Assembly (NCBI GenBank): GCA_026182355.1
Contig: JAPFBL010000104.1
Span: 2,473,501 to 2,537,500, forward strand
Direction: 5' to 3'
DNA length: 64,000 nt
DNA from: Hermatobates lingyangjiaoensis
Lineage: Eukaryota; Arthropoda; Insecta; Hemiptera; Hermatobatidae
In this document: positions 5,975-61,680 of the stretch, piece by piece
How the letters are laid out: each line of letters starts with the position of its first letter
Position numbering within the stretch: position 1 is the first letter of the stretch
Position numbers and translations under genes: made by a program
The notes under the pieces: model-generated
What the model saw: the letters and a program-made list of their open reading frames with translations, nothing else
What the model was told of the DNA's origin: nothing
Databases searched by the model: none

Positions 5975-6157
5975 TAAACACTTTTTCTTCTTCTCGGAAT
6001 TGGGTCAGGGTTAATATTCGGAATCACATTTTCGCCAACGTTTCGTCTTTATTTTAAGAGCCCTGAGGACGTCTTAAAATTAAGATGAAACGTTGGCGAA
6101 AAGGTGATTCCAAATATTAACCCTGACCAAATTCCAAGAAGACAAAAAAGTGTTTAT
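5975..6157. repeat. Inverted-repeat module with hammerhead motif
   Basis: Two arms of about 70-80 bp (roughly 5975-6058 and 6075-6157) are reverse complements with few mismatches. Both arms begin or end at a TAAACACTTTTT-like sequence. The plus strand carries a hammerhead-like motif at 6060-6097 across the centre. Head-to-head partial copies are typical of Penelope-like element debris. A decayed relative lies at 56111-56160. Confidence 0.8.
6060..6097 (+). ncRNA. Predicted hammerhead ribozyme (type I), family 1
   Basis: Helix I is GCC (6060-6062) with GGC (6095-6097). Core CTGAGGA is at 6063-6069, with one extra C at 6070. Stem II is GTCTT with AAGAT (6071-6075, 6082-6086). Core GAAA starts at 6087. 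The self-complementary ACGT at 6090-6093 would be helix III, and the residue before the predicted cut is T6094. All conserved core residues (C3 U4 G5 A6 N7 G8 A9 and G12 A13 A14) are present. Helix III has no loop, so cleavage would need two RNA copies. Prediction by eye only; activity unknown. Confidence 0.6.
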
Positions 6158-9100
6158 ATCTGAAATATACATATTAAATTTAATAAAATTGAAACAGTGT
6201 GTGAGAAATTTGTCATAAATGGATATACTAATTCTTAATAATACTCGTAATTTAAATTGTTAAGATATCTCTCCAAAATATTGAGATTGAGATTATTGGG
6301 AAAACGTCTAAAACAAAATATCATTTTTTCCAAGAAATGTTATTCATAAAACTATATTCCATATAAACAGTTATTTAAAAGAAATTTCATAGAGATGAAT
6401 TCCTAAAATATTTTCACGCTCTTTGATAGACATTCCAAAGAAACATCATTATCCATTAAGTAATAAAATAACTTATTTTTGGGAAACAGTCATTCCATCT
6501 TACCATGTAAGTTGTCATTACAACTTAACAGTTTTAGAAGAAATCAATTATTATGATGAAGCTCAATGTATTCTATGGTATTATTTACTTTACCTTTTTT
6601 TTTTAGAGTATATTGTACTAGACTACCATGCCATATTTTATTTAAAGAACTAAGATCATTTGAATTTTCTATATTTATTTATGAATTACTAGATTTGTTC
6701 ATATTTAGATTTGAATATACCTTATTGTTTTCTCTCTATGTATTTGTTGTCAGTTTTGTCTTTCTTTCCTTAGTGACATCTCTATGAATCAGCCAATCAT
6801 TTCAATATGTCGATTATCTAACGATCAGCTCGTTTGTTAATTACGCTCTTGTAAACTGTTTGATCATTAAATATTTGTACGGCTTTTTTAATTGGCTTTA
6901 GTTTGCTTTCCGTTATGGATTACGCCATTAAGTATGCAAACAAGTACGCCAAAGTCTCTGTGTTGTCTAAATCAAACTAATGATTGAAAGAAAATAAAGG
7001 AAATTAAAATCAAGATACAAACTGTTAAAGGTATTAATAAATAAAAAATGACAATATAATAAAGAAAACAGCTTGAGAAACTTATCCCTCAAAATATTTT
7101 GTAAAAAAAATTTATAAAATAGTTATGATATTGGTGAAAAAAGGAATGAAGACGCAAATACCACAACTCTGCCAGTAAAAAATGTTTACTAGATTCATAT
7201 ATCATTCATTAACTCACAATTTATGAGAAGATAAGAAAAATTATCAAAAGATGTCAATTTAAATAATTTTCTACAGGAATCATTATTTAATGGATTATAT
7301 TGTGAAGAAGTTAAAGTTGATAGGTGAAACAGTTTAATTTTTAATGTGTTATTAACTTGAAAATATAAAAGTATAAAAGCAATAGAAAAAAAAGCGCTAT
7401 TGGCCTGATGTCACTTCATGGTCAAAATATATAGCTCAAGTACATTTGTATTTGTCTAAGTAAATCTCTTTTTCTTATCTTTGACAGTTCTAATCATCTA
7501 AAAAAGTTTTAATCGTCTATAAAAGTTACCAGACGTCTTGTTATAATATAAAACCATCGTAGCTTGTAAATCTACTTTTCAGAACCATTCGTGCCATGAA
7601 GGTAACTAGATACATTATCAACAATGAAACCATTATATGTCGTAAATCTTGATATTTAGTTAGTACCATAGAAATCATTAGATCTATTATTGATCATAAA
7701 AACATCATATCTTTGTTTCTGTTAAGTTAGTTATAATTTTCTTAGTAGTCTAAATACCTCATTTAATCTAACCCTCGGTATTTGTGTGGGTTTGTTTTAT
7801 ATTAAATTGTGAGACTACAACCAATGAAAGTATACGTGTTCATCTGAACAATTCAAAAACTGCCTTTGGAATTAAGATGAAAGTTCACTATCTTCTCTCG
7901 TATCTGTTACCAGACAGCTCCACGAATTCTAAAGCTGATCGGTATAAAGAAAACCTTCCTCGTATGATATTACTTACAAGCTCTGTATAGTGGAAAACAG
8001 TACCATTATGATTTTGGAATTGATTAATTTAGGCTATTATAAATAATAAATGATAAGCGGTCTATGAAAAAAAATATTTTGATGTGAAGTGAATGAATAA
8101 TATTATATGAAGAAGAAAATTAGAAATCATGTGTTATTTGATGACATACTGAATAATGGTAGTAACGTTTTTAAAAATGTAATAAGATCTCTTATTTAAT
8201 GAAAATATATACTTTCCTTTCTTATCTCGCTGCTTTGTTACACTTTATTGTTGATTTTAGGAGTCATACGGAATAATTTATGGAAATAAATTGTTGGTCA
8301 TCAATCATATTGATAAAACTTTTCACGCTTTTATTGAAACCAAGATGCGGAATTATCAAAAAAATTGCAAGCAATTTTACATTTTCGCTATCTGGCTGTC
8401 TTGAAATTAAATTGATAACAGTGATAAAGATGGCAATCAGTGGAGATAACAAGTTGGGGGTGAGTGAGAAATAGGCCGCCCCTCCACTAAGGGTGGTCGA
8501 GTAGGGTGGGGCCGACTTTGTTTGTGTTTCGGGTTAGTTTGGACTGCCTCGCTCCAAGATACTTAACTTCCACCCTTCTCCTGCACAACCTTCCCTCTCA
8601 CCGCAAAACCCAATCACTTCCTTGTCTTCTACTCATGGAAATACATGTTTTACACTTTTTTTTTTCGTTATACTCCTCGGTTGTTATACTCTTCTCTCTT
8701 CCTTTATATGTTTGTGCAATTGTTTCTAATCTAACTATTGTAAAGACTGTTTTAGCCTGTGACAAAGTCCTCAATATGGACCTTTAAATATTCATGACAT
8801 AACTATTTTTATTATTCGAAAAAAACTCTATGCATGCTCAGTCAAGTTGCGACCTTACCTAAGACCTTTACTAGAGAGCATGGTCCCAGTCTTATGATTC
8901 ATATTTAACTGTTGTTTATATTTATTTTTTGTGACCCACAGGCTCACAATTACACACACATCATAACGCTCATATATCTATGTATATTATTAAAAAGCAC
9001 GGTGGCTTTTGCATTGATGATTTTCTTAGAAAAATGCTCTTTTTGCCTTATTGTCATTCTATAGCTTATAACCATAAGCACGAGTTCTTTAGCAACTTCA

Positions 9101-9637
9101 TGGTTTCTTTTTATTATTAGACTACTTTTGTAGTTCCCCGTGTTATCTTTATTCCTCGTAGTATCTCTTCTCTAATTTCTTCATCTATGTGATTTAGCCT
9201 TCAGAATTAGTTGGTCTGACAAACTTCTTGTTATGTTATCACACCCACAGAAAATATCCCTCGATAATCATCAATGTTGTTGGTGATAATAGTAAATATA
9301 AATGAATTACAAGAAATCCCACGAAAAAATTTACTAATAAAATTATTAAGAGTATTAATTCCAAGAAAAGAAACATTACTCGACTACTACTAACAGGTCA
9401 TTTTGGTCTTGGCTGTTGTTATAGTAATGTTAAAACGCACAAGCCATATATGACAATGTTTAAACCCCTAGGCCAATCGTCAGTCAGATATCTATACTCA
9501 CATGCTAGCTTGCCAAAAGACTTAATGATATTCTTATTCATTTTATTCCTTCAGAATTAACTATCTTCTTTTATTTATTTATTTTCTTAATTTATTGATG
9601 TCATCTCCAAATTGAGGTACTATATGTTCAAAAGTCA
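6158..9637. other. AT-rich intergenic sequence
   Basis: Short ORFs (for example at 6423, 6566, 7784, 8280 and 8506) show no recognisable domain, no conserved motif and no start context, so they are treated as chance. The 8440-8600 part is more GC-balanced and contains a small imperfect hairpin around 8474-8510, but no known family was recognised. Confidence 0.5.
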
Positions 9638-9649
9638 TTGGATCTTCTT

Positions 9650-9792
9650 TCATCCGGTGCAGGAAAAAATCCAACTAGGAAAAATCCCCCCGGAGGAAAA
9701 AAAACGGGTAAAAAACGGGTAAATGTCTCTGGAACCCCTCCCCCCCCCCGGGGGAAAAATCCCTCCTCAAAAAATCCTTCCCCCCCACCAAA
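9650..9792. other. G/C and A homopolymer block, possible assembly or read-error segment
   Basis: The sequence alternates AAAAAA with CCCCCC, GGGGG and a nine-to-ten C run, with repeated AAAAATCC and AAAACGGGTAAA motifs, unlike anything else in the window. It sits directly before the Penelope relic. The Pro/Lys-rich ORF at 9638-9895 follows from this composition and is not a credible protein. Confidence 0.5.
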
Positions 9793-9904
9793 AGAAAATG
9801 AATCTATTTTTTTACTAGAAGTAGTATATTATATCAATACTAAATTACCAAAAAATATAAAAACTTCTGGAATATCAATTTTTATAGGTCATTAAATTTA
9901 TTTA

Positions 9905-10440: not shown

Positions 10441-10477
10441 ATAAACCAACAAAAGTCTCCACACAAATGAAGTTTTA

Positions 10478-10516
10478 TTCAACGCGTTTCGAACACTTTG
10501 TGTTCATCATCAGGAA
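10478..10516 (-). ncRNA. Predicted hammerhead ribozyme (type I), family 2
   Basis: This is the cleanest hammerhead in the window. On the minus strand: helix I TTC (10516-10514) with GAA (10480-10478); core CTGATGA (10513-10507); one extra T; stem II GAACAC with GTGTTC around loop AAA; core GAA; self-complementary ACGCGT as helix III; then T before the predicted cut. Every catalytic-core position matches the hammerhead consensus. The palindromic helix III would pair only between two molecules, as in known dimer-type hammerheads of satellite and Penelope RNAs. The neighbouring reverse-transcriptase relic is on the opposite strand, so this may be the end of a second insertion. Confidence 0.72.
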
Positions 10517-12337
10517 GACACTATAATACAAATTAAATCTAATTAGTTACAAAAATTAGAGTGAAATAATAAAAAATAAAAGTTCAATTAAGAGAATTCA
10601 AGACATACCCAAGGAAGTGGTACTGACGGGTTGGTCAAGTGAAAACAACTAGTAGGAAACTGATCCCTTGCGAAAGAGGATAGGCAGGCATATAGGAGAT
10701 AAGGTGACAAAGGTATCGGGTATGCTTGAAAGCCGTTAACTGAAATAGAGAAGGCCAGAACCAATAATTTAGAGGAAAGAAACTTTTTTTTTTTTTAATT
10801 TATTCTTTGTGATTCTAGGAACAGCTTAAGAAATTTTGGACACCCTGGAATTTGATCATTAAGGCAGAGAGAGGCAGAATGAGTTTACCTCAGAATGAGT
10901 AAATACCACACAATTACGGATTGCATAACTAATGATTTAAAAATGGTGTACCAGTGTTGTGCAACCCTTCCTTCTTCCCATATAGCTATAAAAACATCGA
11001 AGCTGTCTAGATTTTACCCTCCACCTCTCATCAGGGCCATCTAAGGATCACGTAAAAAGATCGGGGTTACTCCGAGTAGAAATATGTTAGTATAGGGTAC
11101 CTTAGTTTTATTGAAAAACAATAATCCTAGACACTTACAAACATTAGAGGTACTTTAAATTAAAGATGTGTCCATCTCTGAATTCTCATTATTTATGACA
11201 TGCACGTCATAATCTTTGAACACAGAATAAAGTGCAAAGTGCCCCCCCCCCCCCACCACTGTTGTTACTTGTCGAATGCGTATAGGAGCTTGTAAAGTAC
11301 TGAAGTACTGGAGTCCAACGCATGGGTGAGCTAATATACTAGTTTATCAGAAAATATCCGGCCATTATCACTAACTTTACGAATGTAACATTATTACTCC
11401 TTTAATTTATTTTATTTTGAGTACTTTAATTGCTTACCTGAAAATGACCAAGGTGATTGAAAGCTTGTATCCTTAGTTTTAATTAAAGTTTGTTTTGTTA
11501 GTATTTTAAAGTTGTTTTCCAATTGTTGTTACAGGTTGTTAAGGTTCAACTCAATTCATTATTCTCATGAGCTATGCAAGCAGTTATTGTGTGGTATTTA
11601 CACATGTTTAGAGAGGAAAAGAAACACTGAATCAACATCATCTTACTGAGGCAGGTATGGAACTCCTTATAGTGTATATTTTATTTTAAAAGTTCGTTGT
11701 TTTAATAATATTATCTTTTTATTGCTTGTGTTGGGCGTAAGCGCCTTCCGTGGAAAACAGTTCGAGAAACGTGGCTCTGTATATTGATGTGGTAGTGTCG
11801 GCAATACTCAGCAATGCATTCTCAGAAGATTCATCGATAATGCGAATAATCCCAATTAATTGACTTTCCATGCCTGTAAAATAGTACTGAAATAATTATT
11901 GTCATATTTATAACACTCGAATGATAAATTTTCAAGCTTCTTGAAGGTTGAGCTTTAGAAATAATTTAATAATAGATATATGAATAATGACCTATGGTAG
12001 ATATATTAAAAAAAAATGATGAATAATAATGTTAAATTATCATTTTCTAAATCATTTCAAAAATTAATTTGATTTTAGCTATTGAGTCTTTGCAGGCTTA
12101 GGCATTGCCGCAGATACCGTAGCTAGGTAATTATTTATACAAAGTAGAGTCTTTTGATTAATTACTCTTATACAATCTACTGGCTCATAATTAAAAGGTC
12201 TTATGAAAACTTAAAACAATCTTACAGATCATGGATTGAATAAAGTATCAATGATTATTCAAAAATTTGATGTAATAGGTTAAATTAATTTATAGTCACT
12301 CAGCATTTCTGACTTTGATAAAGAATTGTTAAGAAAA
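10517..12337. other. AT-rich intergenic sequence with a poly(C) run
   Basis: No coding or RNA feature is supported. A run of 13 C lies at 11242-11254. The stretch 11740-11785 contains a sequence resembling the inner end of a hAT terminal repeat, but no partner end was found. Confidence 0.5.
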
Positions 12338-12766
12338 CACAGCGCAAAGCAATCTAGATAGGATTGGAAACACAGCACAAAGCAATCTAGATAGGATTGG
12401 AAACACAGCACAAAGCAATCTAGATAGGATTGGAAACACAGCACAAAGCAATCTAGATAGGATTGGAAACACAGCACAAAGCAATCTAGATAGGATTGGA
12501 AACACAGCACAAAGCAATCTAGACAGGATTGGAAACACAGCACAAAGCAATCTAGATAGGATTGGAAACACAGCACAAAGCAATCTAGATAGGATTGGAA
12601 ACACAGCACAAACCAATCTAGATAGGATTGGAAACACAGCACAAAGCAATCTAGATAGGATTGGAAACACAGCACAAAGCAATCTAGATAGGATTGGAAA
12701 CACAGCACAAAGCAATCTAGATAGGATTGGAAACACAGCACAAAGCAATCTAGATAGGATTGGAAA
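12338..12766. repeat. Minisatellite, 13 units of 33 bp
   Basis: Exactly 13 tandem units of 33 bp (429 bp), each containing CAATCTAGATAGGATTGG with an internal ATCTAGAT palindrome. Units are nearly identical: unit 1 has GCGC for GCAC, unit 6 has AGACAGG, and unit 9 has ACCAATC. Because 33 is a multiple of three and the unit lacks stops in some frames, two long minus-strand ORFs (12280-12741 and 12329-12784) with 11-residue repeats appear. They have no non-repeat domain and are best read as artefacts. The homogeneity points to recent expansion. Confidence 0.97.
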
Positions 12767-13796
12767 ATGCCATTGAAAATTCAACTTAATTTATAAGAAG
12801 AATAGAATATCTCCCGAGTCAAAGAGACACCAAAGTAAATTACACCAAGTAGTTGTAAAATTTAATACTTAAATACTAATTAGATTTCATATTTCATTTA
12901 TAACTTCTCTTTGAAATATTGCTAAATAAAAAATCATTATTGTTTATTTTGTTTCGCAATCAATATTGTTTGACTTTTGCAACATACAAGCCGGATTTTA
13001 TGCAAAGTAATTCAGTTAAAGCATTGTTGGAAACTTAATTGAACTTAAAAACTTTGTTGCCTGACGTCCTAACTTACTGTCTATTGAGACGTAAATAAAG
13101 TTGCTAAACGACAGCAGAAGTCTTTAGCCTTGTAGAAACAATTTTATCACTTCAAACACTATAAATAACCAGATTATTTCACCTTTCTCACTCGATACGA
13201 ACATTCTTTATAAAAAATCTGGAGTCATATGTACCTAACTTTACTATGAATATCAAAATATTGTAACTTACTTACCCTGACTAAATAGAATACTAACTCC
13301 AATAATCGTTAGTTGAATTTATACAAACCTAGTGAGTAATTCTATACCTGAAAATGACGAGAGTCAAAATATAGTAGTAAGTTATGCTCTTCCTCCATTC
13401 ATATTCTTTCTGTGTAATTTGATAAGTATTGCCGTGGCCTGCTTCTTGTATTTCCTTTTAACAAATTTTATGTTTTACCTATTTCACCAAAGTCTACATA
13501 GAAAGAATATGTTTCGCATATTTACACAAACCTATACTTTCAGTCTATTTCATCAATGTTTAAACCGCAGTATTTGATAAATGGGACTAAGGTCCTTCCA
13601 CCAAAATCTTTCTTCATCGTATTCAATGTCTCTCAGTCATTTTGTGACTCTAATAAAGTGAAGTTATTTTGGTAGAAAGACTTCAATTCCTTTTTTAAAT
13701 TTCTTACACTTGTTTAAACGCTGACTAATTTTACGTTTTTATTATATATATATATATATATAATTTAATAATATATCAACCGTTGGATAGAATAGG
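12767..13796. other. AT-rich intergenic sequence
   Basis: Contains a HINE 3'-end fragment (13218-13255) and a (TA)n tract (about 13742-13764). The ORF at 13332-13577 has hydrophobic Phe/Leu-rich stretches typical of AT-rich DNA and no recognised family. Confidence 0.5.
13218..13255 (-). mobile_element. HINE 3'-end fragment
   Basis: After an A-run (13212-13217) the plus strand reads TCTGGAGT, then a diverged hairpin region, then AACTTTACTATGAATATC. This is the reverse complement of the HINE 3' terminus (subterminal repeat plus CTCCAGA next to T-run). Only the end is preserved. Confidence 0.6.
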
Positions 13797-14098
13797 TGTA
13801 TAATGCAATCGGAATTCGGTCAATTTTCCAGGATCAAAGTCAAACTCTCAATGCCGACGTTTCGGTTTTATTTAAAACCTTTTTCATAGGCCTACAAACA
13901 AAGGATGACAAGAAATCATATATGATATTTTATTTTATCATATTGATTTATTTATTTACCAATATTTTATTATATATGATTTCTTGTCATCCTTTGTTTG
14001 TAGGCCTATGAAAAAGGTTTTAAATAAAACCGAAACGTCGGCATTAAGAGTTTGACATTGATCCTGGAAAATTGACCGAATCCCGATTACATTATACA
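13797..14098. repeat. Inverted-repeat module flanked by (TA)n
   Basis: Arms of about 120-130 bp (13797-13925 and 13975-14098) are near-perfect reverse complements around an AT-rich centre. (TA)n tracts border both sides (13742-13764 and 14102-14122). Each arm holds a hairpin of GGTTTT with AAAACC followed by GAAACGTC and GGC, a decayed hammerhead core (helix I GCC/GGC still pairs, CTGANGA is lost). The ORF 13796-14011 is a by-product of the palindrome. Confidence 0.8.
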
Positions 14099-14188
14099 CC
14101 TATATATATATATATATATATAAAGATTTCACATAAACACGTGAAACAACAATCAATGATCAAACCACAATAAGAAATGGGAAAACAA

Positions 14189-14231
14189 GACTAAGATCTT
14201 TCAACCGTAACAAGCGGTCTTCGTCAGAGTC
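14189..14231 (-). ncRNA. Predicted hammerhead ribozyme, family 3 (left arm)
   Basis: On the minus strand: helix I GACT (14231-14228) with AGTC (14192-14189); core CTGACGA; one extra A; stem II GACCG with CGGTT around a seven-base loop; core GAA; palindrome AGATCT as helix III; T before the predicted cut. The same motif is found at 15659, 47209, 48830 and 48881. Confidence 0.58.
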
Positions 14232-14400
14232 AAAAACCCAACTGAACACTAGATGCAGAAAACATCTGGTGAGGAGCTGAGAAGAGTGGGAGGGAAGAGT
14301 GGTATTTTAAAAGGGTGAAAGCACAGGAAAGGACTAATGTCCAGAAAGAGATGTTTGAGGAAACAAAGGAGTACAGTAAGAAAAAGTAAAAAACTATCCG

Positions 14401-14982
14401 CTAGCTGTCAACCCTCTTTGAAGAGGCTATTGCCCTCGTGACGAAAGTATCAAGTTTGAAGAGACCGTTACTAATGTTTATAATGTTAGATCTATTAAAT
14501 TTAATTAGAGACGATTCAATAATATTTCTTAACAACATTGATTTTTCATGGGTAATAAATTTAGCTCCTGTCCAATCAATATGATGATTTTCATTTTTTA
14601 TATGCAAGAATAAGGCACTACTTTTTTCCTGTCTACTTACGTTATATTGGTGTTGTTTTTCACGTGTCTTTAATGATTTACCAGTTTGACCAATATAAAT
14701 TTTATGGCAATTTTTGCACGGAATTTTATAAATACCAGCGGACTCCAATTCGCTGGGAGAGTTTTTTATTAACATATTACCCACGTTATTACGATTAGAA
14801 AACACTATATTAAAATCAAGTTGTTTGGCTAATCTTGGAAGGGGGTCCAATGATTCGTGGTATGGCAAAACTATAGAATTTGATAAGAAAAGGGGCTCTG
14901 TTGAAGTATTAGAGAAAGTTTTTTTAGCACCCTTCAAAGCTAAATCAATATAAGAAGAGGGGTATTTTAATGAAAGGGCCCA
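14401..14982 (-). pseudogene. Penelope-like GIY-YIG endonuclease fragment (left arm)
   Basis: Reads in one frame on the minus strand to a stop at 14401. An upstream YPSSYIDLALKGA segment, the end of the reverse-transcriptase thumb, is visible before the first ATG at 14937. The C-terminal half carries GIYKIPCKNCHKIYIGQTGK, i.e. the GIY...YIG pair with a CxxC between them as in Penelope elements, followed by SLKTREKQHQ. The domain cleaves target DNA for insertion. The polymerase body is absent, so the copy is truncated although the frame is open. The right arm encodes the same protein with a handful of changes. Confidence 0.85.
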
Positions 14983-14989
14983 TTTTCAA

Positions 14990-15489
14990 CAGAGCCCCTT
15001 TTATTATCAAATTCTATAGTTTTGCCATACCACGAATCATTGGACCCCCTTCCAAGATTAGCCAAACAACTTGATTTTAATATAGTGTTTTCTAATCGTA
15101 ATAACGTGGGTAATATGTTAATAAAAAACTCTCCCAGCGAATTGGAGTCCGCAGGTATTTATAAAATTCCGTGCAAAAATTGCCATAAAATTTATATTGG
15201 TCAAACTGGTAAATCATTAAAGACACGTGTAAAACAACACCAATATAACGTAAGTAGACAGAAAAAAAGTAGTGCCTTATTTTTGCATATAAAAAATGAA
15301 AATCATCATATTGATTGGACAGGAGCTAAATTTATTACCTATGAAAAATCAATGTTGTTAAGAAATATTATTGAATCGTCTCTAATTAAATTTAATAGAT
15401 CTAATATTATAAACATTAGTAACGTTCTCTTCAAACTTGATACTTTCGTCACGAGGGCAATAGCCTCTTCAAAGAGGGTTGACAGCTAG
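14990..15489 (+). pseudogene. Penelope-like GIY-YIG endonuclease fragment (right arm)
   Basis: Plus-strand counterpart of the left arm. The frame is open from about 14990 (TEPLLLSNSIVLPYHESL) to the stop at 15489, with no in-frame ATG near the start; the first TTG is at 15022. It carries GIYKIPCKNCHKIYIGQTGK followed by SLKTRVKQHQ. Differences from the left copy include REKQH/RVKQH, RQEK/RQKK and NGLF/NVLF. It is a 5'-truncated element without polymerase, so not functional alone. Confidence 0.85.
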
Positions 15490-15658
15490 CGGATAGTTTT
15501 TTACTTTTTCTTACTGTACTCCTTTGTTTCCCCAAACATCCCTTTCTGGACATTAGTCCTTTCCTGTGCTTTCACCCTTTTAAAATACCACTCTTCCCTC
15601 CCTCTCTTCTCAGCTCCTCACCAGATGTTTTCTGCATCTAGTGTTCAGTTGGGTTTTT

Positions 15659-15701
15659 GACTCTGACGAAGACCGCTTGTTACGGTTGAAAGATCTTAGT
15701 C
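15659..15701 (+). ncRNA. Predicted hammerhead ribozyme, family 3 (right arm)
   Basis: Helix I GACT (15659-15662) with AGTC (15698-15701). Core CTGACGA is at 15663-15669, extra A at 15670. Stem II is GACCG (15671-15675) with CGGTT (15683-15687). Core GAA is at 15688-15690. AGATCT (15691-15696) is self-complementary, and T15697 precedes the predicted cut. It lies in the 3' region of the Penelope copy. Confidence 0.6.
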
Positions 15702-15736
15702 TTGTTTTCCCATTTCTTATTGTGGTTTGATCATTG

Positions 15737-15737
<1 letters not shown>

Positions 15738-15778
<41 letters not shown>
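15738..15778. repeat. (TA)n tract
   Basis: Long (TA)n run between two Penelope-type modules. Similar tracts bound nearly every module in this cluster (13742, 14102, 16360, 16540, 16754), suggesting insertion into TA microsatellites. Confidence 0.95.
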
Positions 15779-15781
<3 letters not shown>

Positions 15782-15930
15782 AAAATTTGGAAGCAGTCCT
15801 TCATTTAAGCATATTTCGTTGAACAACTGACCGTATTTCACTGATGTCATTTTCTTCACCAGTTTTTCAAGGTTTCTGAATACCTTCTTCTTTCCTTCAT
15901 CCAAACGTTGGAGAATGTTAATTAAGTGGG

Positions 15931-15970
15931 AACCGACATGTTTCGACTGGCTTCCAGTCATCCTAAGGTT
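15931..15970 (-). ncRNA. Degenerate hammerhead, family 4 (left arm)
   Basis: Helix I AACC with GGTT pairs at the outer edges. Stem II GACTGG with CCAGTC is perfect around AAG. GAAA and the palindrome ACATGT followed by C are intact. The 5' core is reduced to TTAGGA, apparently CTGAGGA with changes, so this copy should be inactive. Confidence 0.5.
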
Positions 15971-15978
15971 AATTAATT

Positions 15979-16015
15979 ATGAAGATGACTGGAAGCCAGT
16001 CGAAACATGTCGGTT
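15979..16015 (+). ncRNA. Degenerate hammerhead, family 4 (right arm)
   Basis: Core reads ATGAAGA (C3 replaced by A). An extra T, a perfect six-pair stem II, GAAA, palindromic ACATGT and C16011 before GGTT follow. The upstream helix I partner is missing here. Together the two arms outline the original motif. Confidence 0.5.
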
Positions 16016-16137
16016 CCCACTGAATTAACATTCTCCAACGTTTGGATGAAGGAAAGAAGAAGGTATTCAGAAACCTTGAAAAACTGGAGAAGAAAATGAC
16101 ATCAGTGAAATACGGTCAGTTGTTCAACGAAATATAT

Positions 16138-16328
16138 ATATAGTTCAATATAGACAAACAAACATAGAGAAATTAAAAGAACATACTTACAGTCTCTAAT
16201 TTTCGGTTTGAACCACCTTCAGGAGAGATAAGAGAGGGAAACCAAGCGCACTGGGAAACCGAAAATTAGAGACTGTAAGTGTGTTCTTTTAATTTCTCCT
16301 TGTTTCTTTGTCTATATTGAACTATATT
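16138..16328. repeat. Inverted-repeat module with hammerhead, family 5
   Basis: Arms 16138-16209 and 16257-16328 are reverse complements. The left arm carries the ribozyme motif at 16193-16226; the right arm keeps only its GAAA-helix III-helix I part. A fragment of the same sequence lies at 46938-46965, and a diverged inverted pair at 61373-61680. Confidence 0.8.
16193..16226 (-). ncRNA. Predicted hammerhead ribozyme, family 5
   Basis: On the minus strand: helix I TCTC (16226-16223) with GAGA (16196-16193); core CTGAAGG (A9 changed to G); extra T; stem II GGTT with AACC around CA; GAA; palindrome AATT; A before the predicted cut. The A9 change would weaken catalysis. The 61437 copy keeps a perfect CTGATGA. 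Confidence 0.5.
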
Positions 16329-16359
16329 TGTCCATTTTGGATCGTATTTCCAACAAAAA

Positions 16360-16507
16360 AGTATATATATATATATATATATAAAACTCAATACAAAAAG
16401 AGAAAGACATGAATATAGGCTTACAGCACTCACTACTCTATTTCGACTGACGTCGTCATGAGGTAGAAGTAGTCCAACGAGTAGCCGCGGCTGACTCTCT
16501 CTTACTC

Positions 16508-16566: not shown

Positions 16567-16592
16567 TTTTTATATATTTATATATATATATA
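16360..16592. repeat. TA and CT microsatellites around a hammerhead-bearing module
   Basis: (TA)n at about 16362-16383, a (CT)n run at about 16510-16540 and another TA-rich tract to 16592 flank a short module. The module (16385-16500) carries a hammerhead-like motif at 16433-16466 on the minus strand. The ORF at 16266-16511 crosses these repeats and is not credible. Confidence 0.85.
16433..16466 (-). ncRNA. Hammerhead-like motif, family 6 relative
   Basis: Helix I CTAC (16466-16463) with GTAG (16436-16433) pairs fully. The core is CTCATGA (G5 changed to C), then an extra C, stem II GAC with GTC around GTCA, and GAAA. Helix III is no longer symmetrical. Probably inactive, but it shows the same plan with a helix I sequence different from the related 49477 copy. 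Confidence 0.45.
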
Positions 16593-16715
16593 AAGCTTAA
16601 ACCACAAAAAGGAAAAAAGGAAAACAATAGAACTGAATGTTCTGAGGCCTTTCAATGTATGCCATCAGAGCATTTATTTTTATTGTTTTCTTTTTTCATT
16701 GTGGTTTAAGCTTCA
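16593..16715. repeat. Inverted-repeat module, family 7
   Basis: Arms begin with AAGCTTAAACCACAA and end with TTGTGGTTTAAGCTT. The centre, read on the minus strand, shows CTGATGG (about 16668-16662), GAAA and the palindrome AGGCCT, a weak hammerhead resemblance with a poor stem II. Confidence 0.55.
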
Positions 16716-16768
16716 TTGATTGCATCATCTGTTTATTTATTGTGATTTTTCTGTATATATATATATAA

Positions 16769-16940
16769 ACTTTGTCACATAGGAAAGAACACAGAAAGAC
16801 ACTACAGAACTCACTTCGATATTTCGACATCCGTCGTCATTGGGAAGAAGTTCGAAGTACTCACGTTGAGTAGCAAACTGCTACTGTGTACTGTGTTCAA
16901 ACTCTTTCTGTGTTCATTCCTATGTGTTAAAGTTTTTATT
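16769..16940. repeat. Module with hammerhead related to the 49.5 kb Penelope 3' end
   Basis: Positions 16769-16875 match 49431-49540 closely; the right end returns as a short inverted copy (about 16893-16935). It holds a hammerhead-like motif at 16814-16847 on the minus strand: helix I CTTC/GAAG, core CCAATGA (changed at two positions), extra C, stem II GAC/GTC, GAAA, palindrome ATAT, C. Confidence 0.7.
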
Positions 16941-21815: not shown

Positions 21816-22538
21816 CCCTAGTAATTTGGCTATTATACATTTATAATGGACATAAATTGACAAAGGAACTATATTTTAAACCATAAAACATCAGTCAAGG
21901 TGAAAGTCCTTAAGCAGCATGTACATGTACATCATGTTTATACTTTGCAGAATTAGATCAGAAATAACTTTTATATTGCAATTAAACATTTGAGAAAGTT
22001 AAAATAGAACTTGATGCACAAACACACTCACAAACATACAACAGTATGTATACTGGGAAGAAACACACAGGCACATTAGGCAGGTCATTTGAAAAAAACT
22101 TAGTTTATTGGGTTCAGGAAACCTCAAAACCTGTATTTACTTTGGAAACTCGATATGAATACTTTACTCTGAATGCAATACTTCTATTTCTCTATATTTA
22201 ATTTAAAGAGTAAATGAAATTGGCCTCAAGATATCAAATCAGGAAAATTTTAATATTTCCAGATTTGTCTTTCTAATATTCCATTTTGGCATGCTTAAGA
22301 GTTCTCATCTCTTCACCAAGATTTTTAACCTTTAAGTTCCAGTTTTAACAACAATCACCCTACCACTAGACCAATGTTATAGTCAATAAGGGTTTTATTT
22401 CAACTTAACATCTTACTTGAACTATTTTCTAAGATATGACATATAGGAGGTTTTATTACTTGAGCATGTAAGACCCTAGTTCAGAGTATATAAGAACTGT
22501 TGGTTCAAAGAATTTTTGTAGTAATTTGTTTACTTTTT

Positions 22539-24161
22539 ACTTTACCATAAGTAAAGTATAGTGATCGTGAAAAAAATCGATCTCGAGATTTTGACGGAAT
22601 TACATGTTTTGAGGTCCCAGAAGTCGTTTTATGAAGTTTTTACGATGATGTCTGTGTGTGTGTGGGTGGGTGCGTGGGTGGGTGCGTGTGTTAGCATTGC
22701 TTGTTACCACGCTACGGTCCAGAATCTTTGATGGATCAAGTTGATATTTTACACAAAAATGGGCCCCATTTAGACGAAGATCCCTATTGTTTGGGAAGAA
22801 TTATGCATGATGGGAAAGTCACTTTTTTTGCCAAAAACCGTTTTTTTTAAAACATTTATTTCTCCTAAACTAATAACCCTAGAGTTTTGAGATTTTGACA
22901 TTATCTTTGAGGTTACAAATGGAACAAACGAAAAATATATTCAGAATTTTAAGACAACAGGAAATATTTTTTTTTCAATAAAATGTAAAAATTTTGACTT
23001 ATAATTCAATCTCAAACCTTGTGAGAGCGATACAGGCCATACTGTTTGATGGACAAGAATGAAACTATGCCTACAAATAGAACATTATATGGCGAATGAG
23101 TTGAGATATTTTTTTCTAAAATTACATTCGTTAAAGGGGCGCTACAGTACGATTTGTGTTTTCAGAAAATGATTTTTTGACGCTAAACGGCTCGTTAAAA
23201 AAAAATGAAAATTTGACCAAAAATGGAACAACAAATTAGCAATTCACAAAAAAAAATTCATGAAGTTTGAATTACGGGAAAGAGCATTAACGATATAAAA
23301 ACTCTTTGTTTATCCTAGACTAAGAGATCACCTGCTATACTTGTCGAATTTTTTGTATTTTTTTACATTGTTTACATTGACTTAAAAATTTTTTGAGCGA
23401 ATCCACTGAGATAAAATTGATGTTTCTAATGGAAAAATGAAAATATATTATTGACTTATAAGAGATGTAAGAGGAATAATATTGTGCAGGTAAATGATAA
23501 CACTCATTAAAAAAAATATCGTATATATGTTATTTGACAAAGGGGAAGGAAAATGATCTTATTAAATACTAAGAAGCCATAAAATTCGCAGTATAATAAT
23601 TCTGTTAAACACCAAAAATGTAAAATATAATTCAAAATATAAATCTTTCGTTTAGAGATTAATAACTGTAATTATCGTACATCTTTAATTAACAAATCAC
23701 CTTAAAACAACATTTTCTTCGCTGTTTAAGATGTTTTTCAGAGAAAAAAAGGGTATTTTACTGTTTTAAATTTGAAAATTTTACATTAATATTCAATGTA
23801 GAAGGATGTTAAGTAAACGATGTAAGAAATCTACTGGCTATTTGAACAATAGCCATGTTCTCTTGTAGGATAATATTTCGTTTCAAGAAATGTTCACATT
23901 GGTTTTTCAAAAATGATATTACTGCTGTAGTTATACTAATGAAATTATTTGCAAATAATAAATTATTTGTGATGTACAAAAATAAGCTTATAAATTGATA
24001 TGTCCTTCAATCACTATCTGTACTACCTCACGAATGCAATGCTAATAATTATATCCCATTTAGATATTTATGTTATGCTTAAATGATACGTTATGTTTTA
24101 TATACTCAAGAAATTTGACATTGAGTTACTTATAGTAAAGTAGAGTGTAGGCCACTCCAGA
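22539..24161 (+). mobile_element. HINE-like non-autonomous Helentron, copy C (complete)
   Basis: Complete copy of the family described at 589-2322. It starts at the 5' hairpin (ACTTTACCATAAGTAAAGT, one base changed) and ends ...CACTCCAGA. It is flanked by TTTTT at 22534-22538 and 24162-24166. The short TG/GGGT microsatellite is at 22651-22690. Very close to copy D (42850-44424), which indicates recent activity. No protein is encoded. Confidence 0.8.
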
Positions 24162-24419
24162 TTTTTACTATTTATTTTTAAAATATATTTTAAACTAATA
24201 AAAGGCAGCTCAGATTTGGGATATGATAACTAATATTCTCAAGAGATATTTACTTTAGGGATTTTTTAAGTAAATGGTTAGGTTGATACTTCTTTATTGA
24301 AAATATTGTATTATTTACGATATATTGTGCTCTCTGAGGCGATACAACTTTTAATTGGCGCTGCGGAATAGTTGTGCTGGTCATATTTTTTTTGTTTTTC
24401 TAGAGGGATGAGGGACTGA

Positions 24420-47137: not shown

Positions 47138-47176
<39 letters not shown>

Positions 47177-47185
47177 GATCAAACC
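46938..47185. repeat. Scraps of Penelope-type modules in (TA)n
   Basis: Positions 46938-46965 repeat the family-5 GAAA-AATT-GAGA segment. (TA)n tracts lie at about 47018-47050 and 47140-47170. Between them is a short inverted repeat with GATCAAACCACAATATGAAA and its reverse complement, the outer terminus of family 3. The small ORFs here reflect TA repeats. Confidence 0.8.
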
Positions 47186-47208
47186 TCAATAAGAAAATGG
47201 GAAAACAA

Positions 47209-47251
47209 GACTAAGATCTTTCAACCGTAACAAGCGGTCTTCGTCAGAGTC
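47209..47251 (-). ncRNA. Predicted hammerhead ribozyme, family 3
   Basis: Identical over the motif to 14189-14231: helix I GACT/AGTC, CTGACGA, extra A, stem II GACCG/CGGTT, GAA, AGATCT, T. It lies in the 3' region of the Penelope copy that encodes the endonuclease fragment at 47421-48065. Confidence 0.58.
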
Positions 47252-47420
47252 AAAAACCCAACTGAAACACTAGATGCAGAGAACATCTGGTGAGGGGTTG
47301 AGAAGAGTGGGAGGGAAGAGTGGTATTTTAAAAGGGTGAAAGCGCAGGAAAGGACTAATGTCCAGAAAGGGATGTTTGGGAAACAAAGGAGTACAGTAAG
47401 AAAGAGTAATAAACTATCGG

Positions 47421-48065
47421 CTAGCTGTCAACGCTCTTAGAAGAAACTATTGCCCTCGTAACGAAAGTATCAAGTTTGAAGAGACCGTTCCTAATGTTTA
47501 TAATATTTGGTCTATTAAATTTAATTAGAGACGATTCAATAATATTTCTTAACAACATTGATTTTTCATAGGTAATAAATTTAGCTCCTGTCCAATCAAT
47601 ATGATGATTTTCATTTTTTATATGCAAGAATAAGGCACTACTTTTTTCCTGTCTACTTACGTTGTATTGGTGTTGTTTTACACGTGTCTTTAATGATTTA
47701 CCAGTTTGACCAATATAAATTTTATGGCAATTTTTGTACAGAATTTTATAAATACCACCGGACTCCAATTCACTGGGAGAGTTTTTTATTAACATATTAC
47801 CCACATTATTACGATTAGAAAACACTATATTAAAATCAAGTTGTTTGGCTAATCTAGGAAGGGTGTTCAATGACTCATGATATTACATGATATTAGCACC
47901 CTTCAAAACTAAATCGATATAAGAGGAGGGGTATTTTAATGAAAGGGCAATTGATCTAATGTTGTTAATCTCTTCATTAAGGAATTCAGGATAGCACACT
48001 CTTAACGCTGTTTTTAGAAATATGTTTTTGAGGGCGTGAACGTAAATTTTTGACGGCAAATGCAT
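47421..48065 (-). pseudogene. Penelope-like RT thumb and GIY-YIG endonuclease, truncated
   Basis: Third copy of the 14-15 kb family. It extends further upstream: HLPSKIYVHALKNIFLKTAL, RVCYPEFLNEEINNIRSIAL and SLKYPSSYIDLVLKGA represent the reverse-transcriptase thumb. Relative to the 14.9 kb copy about 75 bp between LKGA and YHESL are lost, and an in-frame TAA lies at the join (about 47878). After it the frame continues with GIYKILYKNCHKIYIGQTGK and SLKTRVKQHQ. The first Cys of the CxxC between GIY and YIG is Leu-Tyr here, another sign of decay. Non-functional. Confidence 0.82.
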
Positions 48066-48789: not shown

Positions 48790-48829
48790 TATATAAATGA
48801 TCAAACCACAATAAGAAATGGGAAAACAA

Positions 48830-48872
48830 GACTAAGATCTTTCAACCGTAACAAGCGGTCTTCGTCAGAGTC
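48830..48872 (-). ncRNA. Predicted hammerhead ribozyme, family 3
   Basis: Same motif as 14189-14231, all core residues intact. Confidence 0.55.
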
Positions 48873-48880
48873 AAAAACCC

Positions 48881-48923
48881 AACTCTGACGAAGACCGCTT
48901 GTTACGGTTGAAAGATCTTAGTC
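48881..48923 (+). ncRNA. Predicted hammerhead ribozyme, family 3
   Basis: Same motif as 15659-15701, except that helix I reads AACT instead of GACT at the 5' side because the arm junction falls here. Three helix I pairs remain. Confidence 0.5.
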
Positions 48924-48991
48924 TTGTTTTCCCATTTCTTATTGTGGTTTGATCATTGATTGTTATTTCACGTGTTTATGTGAAAGCTTTT

Positions 48992-49037: not shown

Positions 49038-49365
49038 TTTTTAGGGTTGAGGTCTAATGATTTTAAACTAGTCCTTTCGCCGACGTTTCGACATATATTT
49101 ATGTCACATGATTCTTTTACAATTAGCACTACTATTACAACTATAATCAGTTATTTCGACTATGGATTTTTTTTTAATGACATAAGGATATTACTATAAT
49201 TATGTCATTAAAAAAAATCCATAGTCGAAATAACTGATTATAGTTGTAATAGTAGTGCTAATTGTAAAAGAATCATGTTGTAACCCTGAAGATAACATAA
49301 ATATATGTCGAAACGTCGGTGAAAGGAATAGTTTAAAATCATTAGACCTCAACCCTCAAAAAAAA
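49038..49365. repeat. Inverted-repeat module with hammerhead, family 8
   Basis: Arms 49038-49187 and 49202-49365 are reverse complements, from a TTAGGGTTGAGGTCTAATGA-type end to a short AT centre. The right arm has about 14 extra bases (49281-49293) containing the CTGAAGA core; the left arm lacks them. (TA)n tracts lie on both outer sides. Confidence 0.85.
49283..49320 (+). ncRNA. Predicted hammerhead ribozyme (type I), family 8
   Basis: Helix I ACC (49283-49285) with GGT (49318-49320). Core CTGAAGA is at 49286-49292, extra T at 49293. Stem II is ACATA (49295-49299) with TATGT (49304-49308), closed below by an A-C mismatch. GAA is at 49310-49312. ACGT (49313-49316) is self-complementary, and C49317 precedes the predicted cut (a GUC site). 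All core positions match. Confidence 0.65.
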
Positions 49366-49476
49366 AAAAAAAAAATTACATCATATAAATATTGGGTCAA
49401 GAAAGCAAATCATGATATATATATAATATACACTTTAACACATAGAAAAGAACACAGAAAGACACTACAGAACTCA

Positions 49477-49510
49477 CTTCGATATTTCGACATCCGTCGT
49501 CATCGGGAAG
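49477..49510 (-). ncRNA. Predicted hammerhead ribozyme, family 6
   Basis: On the minus strand: helix I CTTC (49510-49507) with GAAG (49480-49477); core CCGATGA (U4 changed to C); extra C; stem II GAC/GTC around GGAT; GAA; palindrome ATAT; C before the predicted cut. It sits downstream of the Penelope ORF on the same strand, so it is physically linked to a recognisable reverse-transcriptase fragment. Confidence 0.55.
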
Positions 49511-49724: not shown

Positions 49725-50613
49725 TTAACGGTACAGGTTAAGACCAGGAGGAGAACGAGCCCCAAGGAGGCATATGAATGCCTCTTCAGAAGCTCTAAGG
49801 GTGACATGGGAATTAGACTCGGGGATTTGTTTGAGGATTTGTACCCTGAAACAATCATTGAAAGGGAGGTCATGGGAATTAGCATGGATAGCTATGGGTA
49901 GGTCTCTGCGCTGACCAACGGACGCCCTGTGATTGTTCATACGCAGGCTCAGCTTGGTTGAAGCCAAGCCAACGTAAAAAGCATCACATCGAGTACACTC
50001 CAAACGGTAAACGCAGTTACAGGAAGTGCAAGATGTATCTGAAGGAACAGGATAGGAGTTGTTACTCAGAGGGGAAGTAAAGTAAGGACTGGAGTTAATT
50101 AGGGGACAGGTTTGGCAGTTACGGCGTTCACATCGCTTCATCCCTCTGCTAGCACAGGGGCTGTTGGAAATATGGGTGAAAATGGATTTAAGGTTGGAAG
50201 GTCTACGGTAGGAGAAAGTAGGGGACTGACTGAAAATAGGAGAAGTAGACGAAGAAGAAGAAAGTATAGGAAAGAACTCCCTAATAACAGCGCCGAGCTT
50301 GTGGGAGCCTGGGAAAAAAGTAGAAATGAAGGTAGTAGTAATCCTACGATCCCTTCTAGCTGTAGGGAGGTGAATACTCTCAGCAGGAATGACGGAACTG
50401 TTGATTATATTACGAGGGTATCCTCGTTCAATAAATTTTTCTTTTAATAGATTAATTTGTTTAGTTCTACTATTAATGGAATTGCAAATTTTATGGATTC
50501 TAATTGATAGGGATCTAGGGATAGCTTTCTTTATATGTGAAGGGTGACAACTGTTATAATGGAGGTATTGCTGAGAGTTAGTGGCTTTTAAATGAACAGA
50601 AGTGGAAAATATA
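49725..50613 (-). pseudogene. Penelope-like RT thumb and GIY-YIG-type endonuclease fragment
   Basis: One uninterrupted minus-strand frame of about 295 codons, open at its 5' end and stopping at 49725. The upstream part, before the first usable ATG at 50141, reads TSVHLKATNSQQYLHYNSCH, then PSHIKKAIPRSLSIRIHKIC. It is followed by LLKEKFIERGYPRNII, matching the conserved Penelope reverse-transcriptase end (TDsHqYLhy.SxHPxHxKxxIPxSQxxRxxRIC, then a thumb with GYP). Next come a Ser-rich linker (SSSSSTSPIF), a Cys-rich segment CERRNCQTC, and CVYRLECTRCDAFYVGLAST, the GIY-YIG position with variant residues (VY...YVG). An RMNNHR helix follows. The absence of stops suggests youth, but polymerase motifs A-D are missing. 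Confidence 0.8.
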
Positions 50614-51166
50614 TATATATATAAGCCTTCTTTTTAAACAATTCGCTGACCAATATATTTATCAATAAAAGGGGCTATCTTAACATTTATTGAGACTGAT
50701 TTAAAACGGAGATCACTAATTCCAAACAAAATTTTTAAAAATTGAATATAAAGGAATATTATTAGGTTAGATTAGTTAGATAGTTAGATGAATTAGAGAA
50801 GTTAGATATGTTGCCAGATACATTGCCCCCTCCACCAGAGAAAATTGTTTAATTACATGTCCACCTGTAATCAAAGTAATTACAAATGATCACCTGATTT
50901 TAAAGCTTCTTAGTTTTAAGAAACTGTGTCTTTATTGGCATACTGATCAGTAAAAATAAGTTAACTCTGATGTGGGTACTTAGGTACATGGAAATATAAG
51001 GGAATCAGGCAGTGGATAGGTTGTAAAAAGATGGAGCCAAACAAATCATCTGCGGCCTGGAATATTTTTGCACAATACACTGCAGCTTTCTCAATAATGA
51101 ATTTCATTCAATGAATGGATGAAGAAGATTGCTATGAGACAATCATTCCCAAAACCAATAAAGATA
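50614..51166. other. AT-rich intergenic sequence
   Basis: Nothing recognised apart from a short repeated GTTAGATTAG-type run at about 50763-50810. Confidence 0.5.
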
Positions 51167-51512: not shown

Positions 51513-51520
51513 ATCTACAT

Positions 51521-53141: not shown

Positions 53142-53146
53142 TTTTT

Positions 53147-57977: not shown

Positions 57978-58026
57978 GATCATTGATTGTTATTTCACGT
58001 GTTTATGAGAAATCTTTTTATATGAT
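57978..58026 (+). mobile_element. Family-3 Penelope terminal module, solo
   Basis: GATCATTGATTGTTATTTCA followed by CGTGTTTATGAGAAATC, the outermost module of the family-3 elements without the rest. Compare 31984-32042 and 48951-49000. Confidence 0.65.
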
Positions 58027-58030
58027 AATA

Positions 58031-61000: not shown

Positions 61001-61077
61001 AGATTTGAATCTAAGTCATGATCCTAGAATGATTGTATGGCATATGGGAAATCTAGTACACGTAGGAATAAAAAAGT
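58031..61077. other. AT-rich intergenic sequence
   Basis: A decayed family-2 hammerhead lies at 58416-58455 on the minus strand (GTGTTCGAAATGCGTT kept, core CTGATGA lost). Otherwise no feature; ORFs at 57995 and 59994 are not recognised. Confidence 0.5.
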
Positions 61078-61240
61078 CCTCGGTCGGTCTCTGCCTGTAT
61101 AGTATCAGGTAATCGTTAAATACTTTCTCTAATAAACTTGCATAAGACAAAATCTGTATGCTCCATGTAAGATAAACTAAGCAAAGTGTCTCACTTATAA
61201 CTATCAAAGGGTCTGATCCACGTGACATGCTGTCCTTCGG
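61078..61240 (+). mobile_element. SINE, 3'-part fragment
   Basis: Shows the SINE body blocks TCGGTCGGTCTCTGCCTGTA, ATCAGGTAATCGTTAAATAC and ATCAAAGGGTC. The head is missing and it is diverged from the 26.4 kb copy. The minus-strand ORF across it is a shadow. Confidence 0.65.
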
Positions 61241-61372
61241 ATAACATTGAATGAACAAGCCTGTGATAGTAGATGTTAGAAGTAATGAACTTCTTCCAAA
61301 AAAAAGTTTGTTAAACTAAAGTAATATATAATGAAGATTTTTTCTTTATTATCATCAAGAAAACTATCCACA

Positions 61373-61680
61373 AAGGACAACCAACATTTCAGAATAAACT
61401 GAAGGTACACAGTAAATAAAAAAAACTCACTTATAGTCTCTAATTTTCGGTTTGAACATCATCAGAAGAGAAGAGATAGGGACACCAAGTGGACTTGCGA
61501 ATCGAGTTGTTTGGTCTTCCTCCAACCGTTGCTTCCCAAGTGCTCTTGAGGTCCCCATCTTGTCTCTCCTTATGACGGTTAAACCGAAACTTAAAGGCTA
61601 TAAGTGAGTTTTTCTATTTACTGTGTACCTATACTTTACCCTGAAACGTTATTTTGTTTATGAATGTCCTTTTATAGCCG
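61373..61680. repeat. Inverted-repeat module with hammerhead, family 5 relative
   Basis: Arms 61373-61500 and 61540-61680 are diverged reverse complements, sharing GGTACACAGTAAAT and AAACTCACTTATAG. The left arm (minus strand) has a full hammerhead core at 61437-61469. The right arm has a damaged one (TTATGAC...GGTT/AACC...GAAAC). A second GAAA-type motif further out in each arm (AACATTTCAG / CTGAAACGTT) suggests another eroded ribozyme. Confidence 0.7.
61437..61469 (-). ncRNA. Predicted hammerhead ribozyme, family 5 relative
   Basis: On the minus strand: helix I TCTT (61469-61466) with GAGA (61440-61437, one G-U); perfect core CTGATGA (61465-61459); extra T; a shortened stem II of GTT/AAC with a bulged C; GAA; palindrome AATT; A before the predicted cut. 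The core is better preserved than at 16193, the stem worse. Confidence 0.5.

Follow-up and report, generated by a model that had tools for sequence, protein, structure and literature searches.

The window analyzed here is a 64,000-nucleotide stretch (G000:C104:2473501-2537500; contig JAPFBL010000104.1) of the genome of the hemipteran Hermatobates lingyangjiaoensis, whose assembly comprises 910 Mb in 1629 contigs. An initial annotation of the window had listed 15 hammerhead-like ribozyme motifs, assigned them to at least seven unrelated repeat families, and linked them to Penelope-like elements (PLEs). Many of the motifs lie in inverted modules without an open reading frame (ORF); others lie beside truncated PLE ORFs. 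We consider it likely that these sequences represent minimal type I hammerheads located in the pseudo-long terminal repeats (pLTRs) of PLEs, and that the modules arose by two-strand target-primed reverse transcription with two start sites at one RNA stem-loop.

Motifs and modules in the window

A head-to-head PLE module of the AGATCT family occupies positions 14152..15738. It consists of two 5'-truncated copies with GIY-YIG fragments, their 3' ends facing outward. The inverted arms are 99% complementary and reach -751 and -677 from core nucleotide C3; the left end carries a long tail, the right end is short, and both abut (TA)n. Its minimal hammerheads lie at 14189..14231 (minus strand; helix I GACT/AGTC) and 15659..15701 (plus strand). 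The GIY-YIG endonuclease ends of the two 5'-truncated PLE ORFs are found at 14401..14985 (minus; Pfam PF01541 at 0.00052, below the curated cut-off) and, in the other arm, at 14974..15489 (plus; PF01541 at 3.1e-05 over 15025-15486+, above the cut-off). Another 5'-truncated AGATCT copy with a GIY-YIG fragment lies at 47175..48040 (minus); its upstream end is rearranged, and its hammerhead is at 47209..47251 (minus). An ORF-less head-to-head module of the same family spans 48793..48990, with the short end on the left and the long tail on the right. Its arms stop at -15 and -2 from C3, and its hammerheads are at 48830..48872 (minus) and 48881..48923 (plus), the junction cutting the outer helix I of the latter.

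The ACGT family contributes two ORF-less inverted modules. The first (6000..6140) has a minimal hammerhead at 6060..6097 (plus; helix I GCC/GGC) and a partner box at 6048-. The second (49066..49410) has boxes at 49094- and 49305+, a long tail at its right end, and a hammerhead-like motif at 49283..49320 (plus; helix I ACC/GGT), in which the helix II closing pair is mutated to A.C. A minimal hammerhead of the ACGCGT family lies at 10478..10516 (minus; helix I TTC/GAA), and more copies of it occur in locus L032. The ORF-less inverted module of the ACATGT family (15811..16135) has 152-nt arms that are 99% complementary, and both cores are decayed (15979+, ATGAAGA; 15931-, CTTAGGA). The AATT family is represented by a decayed motif at 16193..16226 (minus; core CTGAAGG; helix I TCTC/GAGA) and by a hammerhead-like motif at 61437..61469 (minus) with an intact core and a broken helix II. 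Decayed motifs of the ATAT family lie at 16814..16847 (minus; CCAATGA; helix I CTTC/GAAG) and 49477..49510 (minus; CCGATGA), and that of an ATAT-like family at 16433..16466 (minus; CTCATGA; helix I CTAC/GTAG). The motif at 49477 is downstream of a 302-codon open frame (49725..50633, minus) with a weak GIY-YIG match (0.0041, below the cut-off), which is probably a PLE fragment.

The core CTGANGA is thus intact at 9 of the 15 listed positions (6060, 10478, 14189, 15659, 47209, 48830, 48881, 61437, and 49283) and missing at the six whose replacement sequences are given above. The six core-defective motifs retain the 3' half and have intact-core relatives in L010, L025, and L028; the window motifs that fail our descriptor are decayed copies. 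A separate core for the ATAT-family copies was considered and rejected, as their relatives show a decayed CTGATGA.

The bare pattern CTGANGA..GAAA matched 12 times in the window, compared with 3.45 in shuffled sequences (largest 8). Nine of the 12 are the intact listed positions; the other three (21264-, 40609-, and 58541+) look like chance matches. The full descriptor required the core, three or more Watson-Crick pairs in helix II, GAAA, a palindromic or hairpin helix III, H17, and three or more pairs in helix I. It matched seven times (6063+, 10513-, 14227-, 15663+, 47247-, 48868-, and 48885+), compared with a mean of 0.025 and a maximum of 1 over 200 dinucleotide shuffles; this descriptor was tuned after the motifs had been looked at. 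The initial observation is real and, for individual copies, partly overstated; it was partly confirmed, and 7 of the 15 positions match the full descriptor.

A fairer test was made with a looser descriptor, in which helices I and III were free, on 200 kb at preset coordinates of contigs C1-C4 (L009-L028). It gave 15 matches against 0.4 expected (50 shuffles, largest 3). In 13 of them a single base intervenes between A9 and helix II, and GAA is followed by a short palindrome; the two with neither feature were taken for chance. Of the 13 likely real matches, nine come from a single family (AGATCT with its close variants), so the 13 are not independent.

Architecture of the hammerhead motif

In the standard numbering, the conserved hammerhead core consists of C3-A9 and G12-A14, joined by helices I and II, and the 10.1-11.1 pair of helix II comes immediately after A9. 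A structure set was compiled from the window and L001-L109. It comprised 34 helix II versions and 23 distinct helix I/III combinations, and a one-base linker was required. The set is partly biased: L001-L008 were fetched by an ACGT pattern, and L029 onward mostly by endonuclease or ACGT pairs. Across the set, the core C3-A9/G12-A14 is present with helices I and II and recurs alongside many different helices.

Helix I covaries between families. Among the 23 combinations, own partners form 70 of 92 pairs, compared with a mean of 48.2 after random redealing (highest 65; 0 of 20,000 reach 70). When each helix I 5' strand is represented by a single row, 43 of 56 pairs form, compared with 28.9 (0 of 20,000 as high). 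The observation that helix I differs in sequence by family and still pairs was upheld by this analysis, and the core, the two helices, and the covariation support a type I hammerhead-like assignment. The families are unrelated in their flanking DNA; the architecture is common to all.

Helix III is palindromic in 19 of the 23 combinations; random letters predict 20%. The palindromes are ACGT, AGATCT, ACGCGT, ACATGT, AATT, ATAT, and AGCT, together with ATGT, which has a G.U pair. Because a loopless palindrome of 4-6 bases cannot close on itself, helix III could form by pairing between two ribozymes. Earlier work has described dimers as well as a palindromic stem III (PMC3088659; PMC7761336). In 7/7 window matches and in 13/13 likely real matches of the 200 kb, A9 and helix II are separated by an extra base, in scans that allowed 0 or 1 base; direct abutment of A9 on helix II was found in none of them.

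Element identity and abundance

An 811-codon frame in L038 matches RVT_1 (2.5e-11, above the cut-off) and GIY-YIG (0.00064, just below the cut-off). It has 115 homologues with these domains at E<=0.001 (7,993 candidates scored), mostly unnamed environmental proteins. The named ones include two from Oratosquilla oratoria (the longer at 50% identity) and two insect-named proteins at 30-31%. A whole-genome search with the GIY-YIG protein yielded 27,159 first-look candidates; the 150 scored all have 98-100% identity. The unit in L037 and L038 runs from a partial pLTR with a hammerhead through the ORF, whose first ATG is ~110 nt after C3, to a 3' pLTR with a hammerhead, and terminates at (TA)n with an end that is either short or long. 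The two direct ribozymes are 2,649 bases apart in both loci, and a direct pair at 2649 also occurs once among the 100 AGATCT long-form matches listed. In L038, direct pLTRs flank the ORF and an inverted pLTR is added; L037 is alike, with a second truncated copy standing in for the bare inverted pLTR. Because of the RVT_1 and GIY-YIG frame and this unit, AGATCT is a canonical PLE family like those reported earlier (PMC3846280; PMC11167929), and the window copies carry its GIY-YIG fragments.

The PLE link drawn in the initial annotation therefore holds for the AGATCT family, which has the reverse transcriptase (RT) and GIY-YIG domains, and weakly for the ATAT family through the 0.0041 endonuclease match; the ACGT, ACGCGT, ACATGT, and AATT families of the window have no traced ORF, and their PLE origin is putative. 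ORF-less inverted modules exist as had been claimed. Since those of the AGATCT family share tails and orientation with the ORF-bearing copies, they need not be a separate class. Most window copies are probably the ends of PLE insertions, not ribozyme genes in their own right.

Genome-wide counts are pattern matches, and the ribozyme status of each match is putative. The pattern CTGANGA..GAAACGTC matched 7,947 times, compared with 114 for the reversed pattern, and CTGANGA..GAAACATGTC matched 8,192 times, compared with 10; at least 10 helix II sequences were seen by eye among 100 listed matches of the latter. A pattern for the 5' half of AGATCT-family copies, requiring a base other than G at -22, matched 55,807 times, compared with 2. 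The reference base at -22 is G, so this count omits longer copies. A crude extrapolation of 13 per 200 kb gives ~59,000 per genome. One coral has >6000 type I motifs in 16 families, and the figure for the axolotl is 126,247 (PMC7229834). With such counts and family numbers on record, the description of the present set as unusually diverse is by itself unsupported; minimal hammerheads dispersed in thousands are a known, already published class.

Orientation, tails, and ends of the modules

Orientation was tallied on the first 150 or 100 genome matches listed; the 100-match sets came from few contigs. Endonuclease pairs within 5 kb were minus-then-plus in 26/26 cases, with 26 different spacings of 501-3849 (among 150 matches). 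The same orientation was found in 23/24 ACGT-group ribozyme pairs within 1.5 kb, 26/30 AGATCT long-form pairs within 5 kb, and 16/18 AGATCT truncated-form pairs within 300 bp (each among 100 matches). Close pairs are thus predominantly head-to-head. Junctions were analyzed in the 14 modules of one subfamily out of 20 ACGT-group modules fetched, with the other 6 left out. Arm lengths are unequal in 12 of the 14. The junctions show 4-12 nt of overlap in five modules and 4-20 extra nt in nine, and the inner junction varies from copy to copy. No (TA)n was seen between the arms of the modules inspected. Modules are nested or chained in L037 and L038.

Two end types are distinguished in the AGATCT family. 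Long ends run through GTTTCACGTGTTTATGTGAAATCTTT; short ends lack GTTTCACGTGTTTATGTGAAATCTTT and usually stop near TTTGATCATTGAT. Among modules with endonuclease pairs, 26 were fetched and 24 were scorable, and 21 of these 24 have one long and one short end. Across the window and the 200 kb, a long end is combined with a short one in 10 of 11 head-to-head pairs. Ends in the ACGT family come in two types of their own, and both types occur in 4/4 modules with both ends visible (by eye). In the L038 leader, a stem of UCAUUGAU paired with AUCGAUGA is predicted for the tail RNA and encloses a second hairpin (-14.5 kcal/mol, z -3.5, 0/200 shuffles as good). Short stops sit on the 5' strand of this stem, and long stops lie just ahead of its 3' strand. 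Six modules whose flanks are not pure (TA)n (L039, L045, L051, L057, L067, and L073) have the same 13-14 bp on either side as a target duplication; this evidence is modest.

A tail optionally present at one inverted pLTR has been reported (PMC3846280), and purified PLE protein extends both strands, the tail being the stretch between two start sites (PMC11167929). What we add is the tail count and, as a reading of it, that the two start sites would serve the two target strands. No statement of a one-tailed/one-tailless rule was found in the PLE literature searched, and it may still be in print.

The AGATCT copies also share a sharp 5' end. Among 62 copies compared with the long form, 61 match at -14, 56 at -16, 48 at -17, 40 at -18, and 11 at -19. 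For this profile, 38 of 100 listed copies were left out for more than one mismatch in -14..-1, and the non-G -22 pattern excluded the longest copies. Because of this exclusion, a recount was made: 31,505 copies match exactly from -16 onward, and 4,858 of these also match -22 to -17, a drop that point mutations in these six bases partly explain. The 32 AGATCT arms in the 200 kb comprise 16 that stop at -18..-13, 15 shorter ones, and a single longer one. The stop site reads TC|AGTT, ~16 nt upstream of C3. It resembles the arthropod initiator consensus, TCAKTY. On this resemblance, we read the site as a putative RNA start, and the short modules would be run-off copies of the leader. Among the families examined, this run-off signature was observed in AGATCT alone.

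In L110-L121, which belong to an ACATGT subfamily, TATATATA lies near -35 and TCATT near -10 upstream of the hammerhead. This spacing may reflect a TATA box and an initiator, or the TA run may be target DNA.

The tandem units of L079

Locus L079 (G000:C3:2179900-2184200) contains 637-nt units, roughly three per side, arranged head-to-head. Each unit has one minimal hammerhead of the ACATGT kind (helix I TTGC/GCAA) and a 243-codon open frame that runs through the hammerhead, with its ATG inside helix II. The unit beside the junction on the left side is oddly noisy, perhaps through an assembly error. An arm exceeding one unit in length requires a template that is tandem or circular. Folded as a viroid-like circle, the 637-nt unit gave -113, weaker than -128 (sd 4) in 15 shuffles, and the circular reading is therefore not pressed.

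Other features of the window

Several repeats lie outside the hammerhead modules. A 33-bp tandem repeat at 12236-12865 has ~14 in-register copies with several frames open. A large dispersed repeat (~89-100% identity) occurs in direct and inverted copies at 1-3215, 22519-24339, and 42844-44339, and the first copy has an internal period of ~850-895 bp. A direct duplication with a shift of ~3.56-3.6 kb and 98-99% identity covers 40869-45782. An inverted module at 16571-16735 adjoins (TA)n, and no hammerhead was recognized in it. At 13849-14040, an inverted pair with a GAAACGTCGGC box has CTATGAA in place of the core; relatives are found in L013, L009, and L014.

Discussion

A model consistent with the arrangement of these copies is as follows. 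The PLE protein would make cuts ~13 bp apart in the two strands of a target that is AT-rich and often (TA)n. From both 3' ends, PLE RNA would then be reverse transcribed, starting at an internal stem-loop that lies directly ahead of the ORF, each target strand using one of two start sites ~33 nt apart, which would give one tailed and one tailless arm. The cDNAs would traverse the hammerhead; some would stop early, and in the AGATCT family others would stop where the RNA 5' end lies, ~16 nt upstream of C3. Joining of the two free cDNA ends would create a head-to-head module within a target duplication. Long ORF-bearing arms would arise only from tandem or read-through RNAs, and in RNAs with tandem ribozymes, palindromic helix III may pair between ribozymes and allow dimer cleavage.

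A more specific form of this model has, in our judgment, an even chance of being correct. PLE integration would have a fixed division of labor, in which the two strands start on the 5' and 3' sides of one 5'-leader stem-loop, and a complete insertion would be a head-to-head pair, tailed at one end and tailless at the other. With the stem-loop near the RNA 5' end, most events would be run-off copies of the leader alone, and the 'orphan' minimal hammerheads would be by-products.

Several observations weigh against the proposed mechanism. The sharp 5' end was not found in one ACGT subfamily (14 modules, in which the ends are spread instead), and one ACATGT subfamily (12 copies) shows no clear end within 34 nt. 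A short end was scored by absence of the tail. The exceptions to the tail rule are two short/short modules and one long/long module among the 24, and one of the 11 head-to-head pairs; the two outer flanks are identical in one of the short/short modules, which may be something other than a simple insertion. Four of the 30 AGATCT long-form pairs (three plus-minus, one direct at exactly 2649) and 2 of the 18 truncated-form pairs are not head-to-head. Arm lengths are equal in 2 of the 14 ACGT-subfamily modules, as snap-back could give, and differ by just 6-8 nt in three of the 12 unequal ones. The duplication criterion is matched by 6/19 modules with their own flanks and also by 31/342 with swapped flanks, and duplications are readable in few modules because most flanks are (TA)n. 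On the ribozyme side, Rfam found no hammerhead in the window at gathering thresholds, and its 25 matches at E<=10 are mostly inverted repeats resembling microRNA precursors, none of them a hammerhead. Homodimer folding exceeds shuffles in just 1/7 units, and 51/200 shuffles fold as well as the ribozyme segment of L038. A PLE hammerhead studied previously showed no cleavage in the absence of protein, and its mutants inserted normally (PMC11167929).

Some of these points suit the idea that the motif never was, or no longer is, a working ribozyme, and is kept for RNA recognition, dimerization, or start-site choice by the PLE protein. The extra base between A9 and helix II, the absent helix III hairpin, the lack of an Rfam match, dimer folding not above shuffles in 6/7 units, and insertion that did not need cleavage (PMC11167929) all fit it. 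We regard it as possible and rather unlikely, since the core recurs with many helices and helix I covaries, and protein-assisted cleavage of a PLE hammerhead was abolished by core mutations and partly restored by a double mutant (PMC11167929).

Self-priming, in which a single cDNA folds back and copies itself into a head-to-head palindrome, is favored for bdelloid Penelope with an antisense template (PMC3846280). The near identity of the two arms of a module, the equal arms in 2/14 modules, and the palindromes reported at the inverted junction (PMC3846280) speak for it. A copied arm should, however, end like its template arm, yet the tails are unequal in 21/24, 10/11, and 4/4 modules, which makes self-priming improbable here.

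Two independent, opposite insertions at one (TA)n hotspot would suit the common (TA)n flanks, the nested and chained modules of L037 and L038, and the few close pairs that are not head-to-head. All orientations would then be expected alike, whereas pairs other than head-to-head number 0/26, 1/24, 4/30, and 2/18 among the matches listed; in addition, no (TA)n lies between the arms inspected, and the readable target duplication encloses the pair. Independent insertion is very improbable and failed on the orientation bias. Equally remote is a palindromic DNA transposon (foldback or miniature inverted-repeat transposable element) with a captured hammerhead as the source of the ORF-less modules: inverted arms, an AT-rich target, and the absence of an ORF fit it, whereas inner junctions vary between copies, PLE-ORF arms have the same ends and orientation, and the two ends are unequal.

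Two-strand priming of PLE RNA is the reading we prefer, and it bears on questions left by earlier work. PLE transposition has been called relatively little understood (PMC11167929), the origin of inverted copies was left to further experiments (PMC3846280), and the role of the minimal PLE hammerhead was called a mystery (PMC7761336). The copy number in this genome suffices for the integration signature to be read directly. Strand-specific start sites are a sharp prediction for the existing in vitro PLE system, and the ORF-less inverted modules now have a testable explanation that differs from self-priming (PMC3846280). If the more specific form given above is true, the many 'orphan' minimal hammerheads across animal genomes would be by-products of integration, not a separate ribozyme-bearing class.

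Comparison with known systems

Metazoan retrozymes (PMC7229834) consist of short tandem units that each hold a type I hammerhead, and the L079 array may be compared with them. It differs from them in that its hammerhead is minimal and not canonical, an open frame lies inside the unit, the units are head-to-head, and the circular fold is weaker than shuffles. We next compare the motifs themselves with the minimal hammerheads of PLEs, for which the primary papers are reportedly Cervera & De la Pena 2014 and Lunse et al. 2017. The PLE and Terminon minimal hammerheads share with ours the type I topology, a helix III without a non-conserved part, and dispersal in thousands through non-coding DNA, some in PLE pLTRs; they are thought to act as dimers (PMC7761336). 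The extra base between A9 and helix II distinguishes the present motifs from that account (PMC7761336), and the primary descriptions may include such a base.

The Penelope elements of Adineta vaga share direct and inverted pLTRs, the head-to-head arrangement, target duplications, and the optional tail (PMC3846280). Their duplications are 8- to 10-bp in the cases considered, their tail is 31-bp and stands at one inverted pLTR, and their copy number is low. In H. lingyangjiaoensis, by comparison, copies are very many, duplications are nearer 13 bp, and a hammerhead is present; the self-priming view proposed for A. vaga does not fit the tail asymmetry here (PMC3846280).

A further close likeness is with Poseidon of Anolis carolinensis (PAc; PMC11167929). 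Both have an RT and GIY-YIG ORF with a hammerhead at the ORF start, two internal start sites bounding the tail, cutting and extension of both strands, and an AT-rich target, the start sites and the two-strand reaction being putative here. The PAc ORF begins at stem II, and the L079 ATG in helix II is similar. Palindromic helix III, present here, was not seen mentioned for PAc in the available part of PMC11167929. PAc loci are described as tandem repeats, whereas close pairs in H. lingyangjiaoensis are mostly head-to-head, and unlike in PAc, the two start sites appear to be split between the two ends of an insertion (PMC11167929).

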